The notes under the pieces are model-generated. The model did no database searches and was not told the origin of the DNA. It was given only the letters and a program-made list of their open reading frames with translations. From contig NZ_CP101153.1 in NCBI RefSeq assembly GCF_024298825.1, forward strand, positions 3,720,001 through 3,784,000: 64,000 bases of DNA. Reading direction: 5' to 3'. Positions 38,767 to 41,138 of this stretch are shown piece by piece. Numbering within the stretch: the first letter of the stretch is position 1; each line of letters starts with the position of its first letter. Source of the stretch: Haloglomus salinum. Its GTDB lineage: Archaea; Halobacteriota; Halobacteria; Halobacteriales; Haloarculaceae. A program made the translations under genes and the position numbers.

Positions 38767-38872
38767 GGGGAGAACTCTGACTGGACGAATTAGCGCTACT
38801 TTGGATATCCGTCACTATGTCCGAGATGGATTTAGAGGATGTATTCGGCAGTCGGGCGCGGCTATGCCTATG

Positions 38873-39073
38873 CTACGAATTGGCCTCGTCCCGCGCCCAC
38901 GACGGAGTGCTGATTAAAAACAGTGCAACAGCGGTAACGAGTACTCCAGCAAGAATTCCGGCGGCCACGGTCGCCACATCGGTCGCACCGGCCCCTGCAA
39001 CCGCTGTTGAGCCAGCGATGACCGCGAGCAAAATGAGTCCGATGTCTATCCGCTTTCGTAGCTCATAATCCAT
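38873..39073 (-). CDS. Small two-helix membrane protein
   Basis: 66 residues. MDYELRKRIDIGLILLAVIAGS and GILAGVLVTAVALFLISTPSW form two hydrophobic helices separated by a short Gly/Ala/Asp turn. GC content is clearly lower here than in neighbouring genes, as is that of the flanks. Function unknown. Its 5' end faces the start of the toxin-antitoxin-type pair. Confidence 0.62.
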   Translation of the reverse strand: MDYELRKRIDIGLILLAVIAGSTAVAGAGATDVATVAAGILAGVLVTAVALFLISTPSWARDEANS

Positions 39074-39197
39074 CTTTTCGGCCCTTACTTATCCCGGCCT
39101 ATTAATTCCCAGTCGTCCCTATTCAGGCTCTGAATAAGCGCTGTAGGTCGGTCACGGTGACACAGAATGGTCACCATCCGATAATTTCGACGAAAAT

Positions 39198-39244
39198 CGT
39201 AGGGGTTTACCCCCACGTTTATACTGTAGGGGACCACCCCTACA
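39198..39244 (+). promoter_or_regulatory. Two palindromic operators flanking a TATA box
   Basis: Site 1 (39198-39217) is CGTAGGGG-TTTA-CCCCCACG, an inverted repeat with one mismatch and a 4-bp spacer. Site 2 (39225-39244) is TGTAGGGG-ACCA-CCCCTACA, a perfect 8-bp inverted repeat with the same spacer. The TATA box TTTATAC (39218-39224) lies exactly between them and the ATG is at 39253. The half-site GTAGGGG starts repeat at a 27-bp spacing. Binding there would block TBP/TFB. The product of the second gene of this operon is a winged-helix protein, so autoregulation is likely. Confidence 0.7.
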
Positions 39245-39252
39245 ACACACGG

Positions 39253-39495
39253 ATGGCAGACGACGTGGTCGTCCTCCGGGACGAGCAGACCGCCTACGAC
39301 GACGGGACCGTCGTCAGGGTGCGACTGCTGCGCGTCCCCGAATCCGACCGGTTCGAGGAGGGCGTGAAGTACGCGCTCCACTACGGCGCCGCCGGCGCGG
39401 ACGACCCCATCATCCGATTCGATAACCACCATGACCGAGCCCGACGCCATCGACCCCACCGGCCGCACGCTCCACATCCGGCTCGCCGGCGCTGA
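39253..39495 (+). CDS. TumE/DUF6516-like toxin-type protein, probably altered C terminus
   Basis: 80 residues. The first 57 (VVVLRDEQTAYDDGTVVRVR...VKYALHYGAAGADDPIIRFDNHH) match the conserved start of haloarchaeal DUF6516/TumE-family proteins, which are paired with a wHTH partner. Those I remember run on for about 30-40 residues with a conserved acidic/aromatic end. Here the last 23 residues are a His/Arg/Pro-rich run that reads through the start of the next gene in another frame, so the native C terminus appears lost. It overlaps the next gene by 65 bp. Activity is unknown. Confidence 0.65.
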   Translation: MADDVVVLRDEQTAYDDGTVVRVRLLRVPESDRFEEGVKYALHYGAAGADDPIIRFDNHHDRARRHRPHRPHAPHPARRR

Positions 39496-39877
39496 CGACG
39501 AGCGGGAGAGCACGAGCGACCTGCTCGAGGCACTCGACAGCGGCGAGGACATCGAACCCGAGTCTGATCCCGTGCTGCGCGTCGAGAGCCTTGCCACGCT
39601 CGGGCGCGTCCTCCGCGAGACGAACCTCGAACTCCTCGATGCCATCGCCGAGCACGAGCCCGAGAGCGTCCGGGCGCTCGCACGGGCGGTCGACCGCGGG
39701 CCGAAGGAGGTTCTCGAGAACCTGAACGAGCTCGAGGACTACGGCCTCATGGCATTCGAGGAGGACGGTCGGGCGAAGCGACCCTACCTCCCGTACGAAG
39801 AGATCGACATCGACATCCAGTACCCACTTCCGCGGTCGGCAGGTGGGCTGGATTCGGTGACATCGTCAGCCGCCTGA
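39431..39877 (+). CDS. wHTH DNA-binding protein, HVO_A0114-type (likely antitoxin/regulator)
   Basis: 148 residues. The core LRETNLELLDAIAEHEPESVRALARAVDRGPKEVLENLNELEDYGLMAFEEDGRAKRPYLPYEEI is a winged helix-turn-helix, residues about 57-120. The N-terminal 55 residues are acidic and resemble the partner-binding region of the family. It starts inside the preceding gene and forms an operon with it. Its predicted DNA-binding domain makes it the natural candidate for binding the palindromes at 39198-39244. The last 12 residues are Ser/Ala-rich. Confidence 0.78.
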   Translation: MTEPDAIDPTGRTLHIRLAGADDERESTSDLLEALDSGEDIEPESDPVLRVESLATLGRVLRETNLELLDAIAEHEPESVRALARAVDRGPKEVLENLNELEDYGLMAFEEDGRAKRPYLPYEEIDIDIQYPLPRSAGGLDSVTSSAA

Positions 39878-39969
39878 CCGCACGGACACAGAGGAGCACC
39901 CAGCCGCGGGACATCAGCTTAGAGCCAGCTGGACGCATTATCCCATTATATCTCACCCAAACGACATAC

Positions 39970-39996
39970 TTGGAGAATAATACGTCAGACCTCCAA
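39970..39996. terminator. Hairpin between convergent genes
   Basis: TTGGAG at 39970-39975 and CTCCAA at 39991-39996 form a perfect 6-bp stem with a 15-nt AT-rich loop, in an AT-rich 124-bp gap between the convergent wHTH and acyl-CoA dehydrogenase genes. Placement fits a bidirectional 3'-end signal, though no long T-run follows. Confidence 0.35.
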
Positions 39997-40001
39997 ATAT
40001 A

Positions 40002-41138
40002 CTATAAATCCAGCACTTCCTTCGCGATGATGTTCCGCTGAATCTCGCTCGCGCCCTCGCCGATCTGGTAGATCTTCGTGTGCTTGTAGTGCCGGGAGAC
40101 TGCGTAGTCGGTCGTGTACCCGTTCCCGCCGTGCAGTTGAATCGCGTCGGAGGCCACCTCCTCCGCAATCTCGCTCGCGTACAGCTTCGCCATCGACGCC
40201 AGTTTCGTCGGCTTCTCGTCGTCGTCGACGCGCTGGGCGGCATCGTACACCAGCCGCTGGGCGAGTTCGACCTTCATCGCCATGTCGGCGACCTTGTGCT
40301 GGACGGCCTGGAACTCCCGCAACTCGCGGTCGAACTGCTCGCGGTCCTTCACGTAGTCGATGGTCTCCTCCAGACAGCCCTGGGCGATGCCGAGCGCCTG
40401 TGCGCCGATGCCGACGCGCTCCTCCTCGAAGAACTCCATCAGCTGGTAGAAGCCGGCGTCCTCGTAGCCGACGAGGTTCTCCTCGGGGACGCGGACGCCG
40501 TCGTAGCGGAGCTGGGCGGTCTCGGAGGCGTTCCAGCCCAGCTTGTGGATCTCGCTCTCCACCTCGAAGCCGTCGCGGTCGGTCTCGACGATGATGGCCG
40601 AGATGCCGCTGTGGCCCTCGTCGCCGGTGCGACACATCGTGAGGACGTAGTCCGCGATGGTGCCGTGCGTGATGAAGGTCTTCACGCCGTCGATGACGTA
40701 CTCGTCGCCGTCCTTCTCGGCGGTGGTCTCGATGCCGGCGGCGTTGGAGCCGTGGTTGGGCTCGGTGTTCCCGAGCGCACCGATGAGGTCGCCGTTGGCG
40801 ACGCCACGAAGAATCCAGTCCTTCTGCTCCTCGGTGCCGTACTCCGTTATCATCCGGGTGCCGAACTCGGTGCCGATGGCGGCGAGCATCCCGGCGTCCA
40901 CCCGCGATATCTCCTCCATGAACAGGCTCATCTCCAGCTGTGAGAGGCCCGCACCCCCGTACTCGACGGGGATGCCGCCGCCGACGAGGCCGGCGTCGAC
41001 GGCCTGCTCCCACACCTCCCGTGGCCACTCGCCCGTCTCCTCGTGGTGCTGGGCGACCGGGGCGATCTCGTTCTCGGCGAACTCGCGGGCGGTCTGCTTG
41101 ATGGCGCGCTCCTCCTCGGACAAGCCGAAATCGACCAT
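40002..41138 (-). CDS. Acyl-CoA dehydrogenase
   Basis: 378 residues from ATG at 41138. Substrate/FAD motifs are [32 protein letters not shown], and [21 protein letters not shown], and the catalytic base is Glu in [11 protein letters not shown]. Different in sequence from the copy at 37612, so they may handle different chain lengths or branched acids. It is divergent from the acyl-CoA ligase at 41295 with 156 bp between starts. A GATAAG-type TATA lies on the - strand about 40 bp upstream. Confidence 0.92.

Follow-up and report, generated by a model that had tools for sequence, protein, structure and literature searches.

TumE-TumA (DUF6516) is an established toxin-antitoxin superfamily (Nature 2023, PMC10584680), and the locus described here, in the haloarchaeon Haloglomus salinum, has the bicistronic arrangement of its members, in which a toxin gene of the PF20126 family, here truncated, lies beside one whose product is predicted to bind DNA. 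The pairs tested in that work are gammaproteobacterial, with varied antitoxins, and most often the toxin gene is the second of the two. In our locus the toxin comes first, is truncated and is followed by an HVO_A0114 winged-helix protein. The passages of PMC10584680 that we consulted describe no operator for TumE-TumA.

Autoregulation by winged-helix-type antitoxins, acting at more than one inverted-repeat site in the core promoter, is known for AbiEi and Rv2827c and is a close parallel to what we propose for this locus (PMC7319586). The repeats of Rv2827c straddle a core promoter element, as they do here, and related antitoxins of this kind do not cross-bind. AbiEi and Rv2827c differ from our locus in their bacterial sigma-factor promoters, their type IV assignment, their 23-bp repeats and their unrelated protein family (PMC7319586).

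Bacterial type II systems offer a second parallel. In kis-kid (parD), yefM-yoeB and mqsRA, palindromic sites overlap core promoter elements, and the antitoxin, alone or in complex with the toxin, binds the paired palindromes; in mqsRA the toxin gene comes first, as it does here (PMC4803016). However, these operators involve other DNA-binding folds, bacterial promoters and other distances, such as 12 bp centre to centre in yefM-yoeB (PMC4803016). Among archaeal repressors, TrmB, Tgr/TrmBL1, MDR1 and Phr likewise use palindromic sites over the BRE/TATA or between the TATA box and the start, and repressors at these positions block initiation-complex assembly or polymerase recruitment (PMC4158304). 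They are not toxin-antitoxin regulators, and in that review their sites lie over or to one side of the BRE/TATA rather than as a matched pair around it.

The operator that we describe is a variation on a known antitoxin-operator theme and is itself, as far as we could find, previously undescribed. Our search of the open-access literature on TumE, DUF6516, HVO_A0114 and toxin-antitoxin operators of haloarchaea found no account of it, in agreement with an initial sequence-only reading of this DNA, which knew of none. We consider it highly probable that the two palindromes form the operator of a toxin-first tumE-tumA operon, through which TumA regulates its own synthesis with one dimer per palindrome.

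The tumE-tumA locus of Haloglomus salinum

Within the window, the 64,000-nucleotide stretch of DNA that was analysed, positions 39198-39244 read CGTAGGGGTTTACCCCCACGTTTATACTGTAGGGGACCACCCCTACA. The features of the locus are as follows.

39199..39216, no strand: upstream candidate operator dyad GTAGGGG-TTTA-CCCCCAC, on the BRE/TFB side of the TATA box; exact pattern match
39218..39223, + strand: putative TATA box TTTATA, assigned from its sequence
39226..39243, no strand: downstream candidate operator dyad GTAGGGG-ACCA-CCCCTAC, between the TATA box and the predicted start site; exact match
39245..39250 (near 39247), + strand: predicted transcription start region, placed by the usual TATA-start distance
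39253..39495, + strand: tumE relic, toxin reading frame of 80 aa; PF20126 E=9.5e-10
39431..39877, + strand: tumA (P0002), HVO_A0114-type winged helix of 148 aa, putative antitoxin and autorepressor; PF25212 E=4.5e-28

The downstream palindrome has a perfect 8-bp arm around N4 (TGTAGGGG/CCCCTACA, 39225-39244), and the upstream palindrome has an 8-bp arm with one mismatch (CGTAGGGG/CCCCCACG, 39198-39217). The starts of the two 18-bp cores are separated by 27 bp, and the 9-bp spacer that separates the dyads (39217-39225) contains TTTATA. The sequence therefore bears out both the matching palindromes that had first been reported here and the TATA box between them. The upstream dyad lies at the same position as the dyads of other haloarchaeal tumE promoters. 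With the putative TATA box at 39218-39223, and since the usual archaeal distance from TATA box to start is about 26-27 bp (PMC4158304), transcription is predicted to begin near 39247 and to give a nearly leaderless mRNA.

This pairing is more than chance. Only these two sites in the window match the palindrome pattern with 0-1 mismatch, and only they match it exactly in the whole 4.19-Mb genome. Looser searches return background: 23 matches in the window with three mismatches, where shuffles give an expected 17.4, and 95 strand matches in the genome with two mismatches, against 88 for the reversed control, so that only the exact pair is informative. With one mismatch allowed, the double form occurs at this single place among 392 haloarchaeal genomes, and in our class-wide survey GTAGGGG is private to the H. 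salinum genome. A regulon built on the window-type motif is ruled out, there being no further exact site in the genome and no further double site in the 392 genomes.

The first gene is a remnant. Its PF20126 match (38.8 bits against a cut-off of 23.4) covers profile positions 3-58 of 81 only, and TumE homology stops after RFDNHH, at about residue 60, where the reading frame passes directly into the tumA start and continues out of frame through tumA sequence. The C-terminal ~38-40 residues present in relatives are missing; intact relatives (L028, L029, L032 and L040) carry ~38 residues beyond RFDNHH, up to a conserved C-terminus. When 121 haloarchaeal TumEs were aligned with that of the window, H63 and H66 (97% and 99% conserved) fell within the deletion, and P35 (98% conserved) was replaced by E. 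Judged by these losses, the TumE toxin of this genome is probably dead, which makes the locus an antitoxin gene behind a toxin relic. Given the lost histidines and P35E, we regard it as a degenerate member of TumE-TumA rather than a working toxin-antitoxin pair, and at most a self-regulated antitoxin gene survives in this genome. The sequence-only reading had named the operon type correctly, TumE plus an HVO_A0114-type winged helix, but had overlooked the truncation.

The second gene, as had been proposed, encodes a winged-helix protein. Its start overlaps the tumE relic, so that the partner gene for a predicted DNA-binding antitoxin is adjacent, and its product matches PF25212 over profile positions 3-84 of 84 (97.3 bits against a cut-off of 27.6). 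The AlphaFold2 model has a confident wHTH core that appears to resemble ArsR/MarR regulators; the best Foldseek matches of the model (CadC, ArsR and SmtB) reach only E about 1e-3, and Pfam wHTH matches are below cut-off. A sequence search of solved structures gave weak Csa3 wHTH matches only, and PADLOC on P0002 gave only weak CARF/Csa3 wHTH matches. Among named genomes, those of Halorubrum account for most of the closest relatives of this TumA, identity reaching 63% in the best segments.

The H. salinum genome has two further PF25212 genes that score similarly. One lies behind a TumE with a nearly complete profile match (G000:C1:1360730-1360954), and in this second operon GATGG-N8-CCATC occurs as a pair with a spacing of 27 bp. 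The third tumA-like gene, at locus L008 (G000:C1:1574777-1578016), lies behind a frame-disrupted tumE, without a clear double dyad.

It is plausible, although we lean slightly against it, that the operator in the window is itself a decaying relic, the toxin having been lost by deletion and the operator and tumA persisting only because the loss is recent. The truncated TumE fits such a history, and TumE decay is common among relatives: at 80 named TumA loci, TumE is full-length in 47, fragmentary in 18 and undetected in 15, and none of four half-site patterns occurs upstream of tumA at those 15. The flanking site is also variable within the genus. The tumE-tumA relic sits between two acyl-CoA dehydrogenase genes that are conserved in the genus (window 38767-40022), and the same gap elsewhere (L175, L176 and L177) measures 246 bp in G049, holds a Fic/Doc-family gene in G047 and extends to 5.7 kb with PQQ_2 beta-propeller genes in G048. 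Such variability is consistent with gain of the operon by transfer. Against such decay, the two dyads have stayed nearly perfect, and tumA retains an open, well-conserved reading frame. Decay of this kind is compatible with a TumA operator, as it concerns only whether the switch still works here and not what kind of switch it is.

Promoter layout and half-sites across Halobacteria

TumE is present in 192 of 392 genomes of the class Halobacteria, and we examined 125 unique haloarchaeal tumE promoters. A strict test required a pair of 18-bp palindromes whose arms match, a spacing of 22-33 bp and a score of at least 15. The layout passed it in 60 of the 125, whereas control windows taken at the same loci gave 4 of 625 and dinucleotide shuffles 0.16%. 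Spacing is 27-29 bp in 56 of these 60 promoters (27 bp in 29, 28 bp in 21 and 29 bp in 6), and in 24 aligned promoters of the 27-bp type the TATA-box positions of the spacer are T/A-rich. The paired sites are real and are part of a class-wide layout.

About half of tumE promoters miss the strict definition. A wider one (16-21-bp sites, wider spacing, score 17) takes in 74 of 125 promoters versus 14 of 625 controls. Another subgroup (L059, L063, L074, L113, L118 and L133) has a second geometry, in which dyads scored at 17-19 bp are spaced by 34-35 bp and the stretch around the TATA box is longer, and the upstream dyad alone is present at several Halorubrum loci and in Halobacterium salinarum DSM 3754 (L178, L182, L183, L202 and L203). 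None of 27 TumE loci of other archaea showed the layout, these being TumEs that the haloarchaeal profiles barely recognised and for which no TumA-like partner was found.

The sequence-only reading had named orthologous pairs as the place to check for the same motif. The literal motif is absent from their promoters, which by that reading's own criterion would amount to a refutation; it is the geometry that these promoters conserve, and their half-sites vary with TumA clade. These include GTTAG, TATGT/TATGG, GTTGG/GTTGT, GATGT and GATGG, with GTAGG in the window only. Exact GTTAG double operators occur at 17 places in 16 of the 392 genomes, compared to none for the reversed control. Twelve of 16 fetched loci are tumE promoters, and in 11 of those 12 the distance between the start of the operator and the beginning of TumE homology is 53 bp.

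Half-sites follow the TumA clade and not the host genome. They differ in all six same-genome operon pairs (only slightly for L144/L059), while TumAs at least 60% identical from different genomes share 86-91% of half-site letters. Because the operator class follows the antitoxin clade, we argue that TumA itself reads the operator. A code in the recognition helix was suggestive by eye, but its correlation with the half-site beyond overall TumA divergence is only weak (partial Mantel test, r=0.13, p=0.02).

An unrelated host regulator, rather than TumA, might instead bind the dyads and control tumE-tumA operons, which we think improbable. A similar site can be used by another protein, to judge by the remaining four of the 16 fetched GTTAG double operators (L265, L266, L267 and L271), which adjoin neither tumE nor tumA. 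In these four the GTTAG-N8-CTAAC palindrome is likewise doubled at a spacing of 27 bp, but in a distinct form rich in GTTAGC, and another regulator seems to use the same geometry there. A host regulator is nevertheless difficult to reconcile with different operators for different tumE-tumA operons of one genome, with a site sequence that follows TumA relatedness across genomes and with window-type sites that occur nowhere else in the genome. Finally, inverted repeats rich in GC are able to fold into hairpins, but the palindromes are almost certainly neither an RNA hairpin nor an inverted repeat that arose by chance or from a repeat. Transcription is predicted to start downstream of the two dyads, which would leave them out of the RNA; many promoters share the geometry although their sequences differ, few controls do, and the genome has no other copies of the sites.

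A proposed model for TumA autoregulation

Autoregulation, which had been suggested from the locus alone, is supported as the likely function, by analogy with known systems, by recurrence of the layout in 60 of 125 tumE promoters and by half-sites that follow the TumA clade. From this we infer that TumA binds the dyads as two dimers and represses the operon, perhaps cooperatively and with some modulation by TumE.

Dimers of the ArsR/MarR-type fold typically bind dyads of about 18 bp. By analogy, one TumA dimer would sit on each 18-bp dyad, the upstream one covering the BRE/TFB side of the TATA box and the downstream one the stretch from the TATA box to the start site. With both dyads occupied, TumA would block assembly of the initiation complex and turn its own genes off.

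More tentatively, and in our view somewhat less likely than not, haloarchaeal TumAs may share a type of operator whose two dyads act as a clamp on the TATA box, in which a fixed geometry is combined with diversifying half-sites that insulate tumE-tumA operons of the same cell from one another. An assembly of TumE and TumA that contains two DNA-binding dimers might reach across the TATA box from one dyad to the other, and repression could then be sensitive to the toxin:antitoxin ratio.

If TumA does bind these sites, the HVO_A0114 antitoxin family would have what is, within the literature that we searched, its first described operator, and antitoxin autoregulation would have a widespread archaeal version suited to TATA/BRE promoters. 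The half-sites, which are specific to lineages, provide a natural series in which to seek the recognition code of the HVO_A0114 winged-helix family, and haloarchaeal genetics could draw on their diversity for orthogonal repressor-promoter pairs.

Toxin loss beside a retained promoter is also seen elsewhere. At L211, L254, L259 and L264 the promoter dyads are kept while tumE is broken by a stop, a frameshift or an internal deletion, and at L211 and L264 the operator and the antitoxin are both kept beside the broken toxin. The deleted tumE stretch at L264 again follows RFDN.
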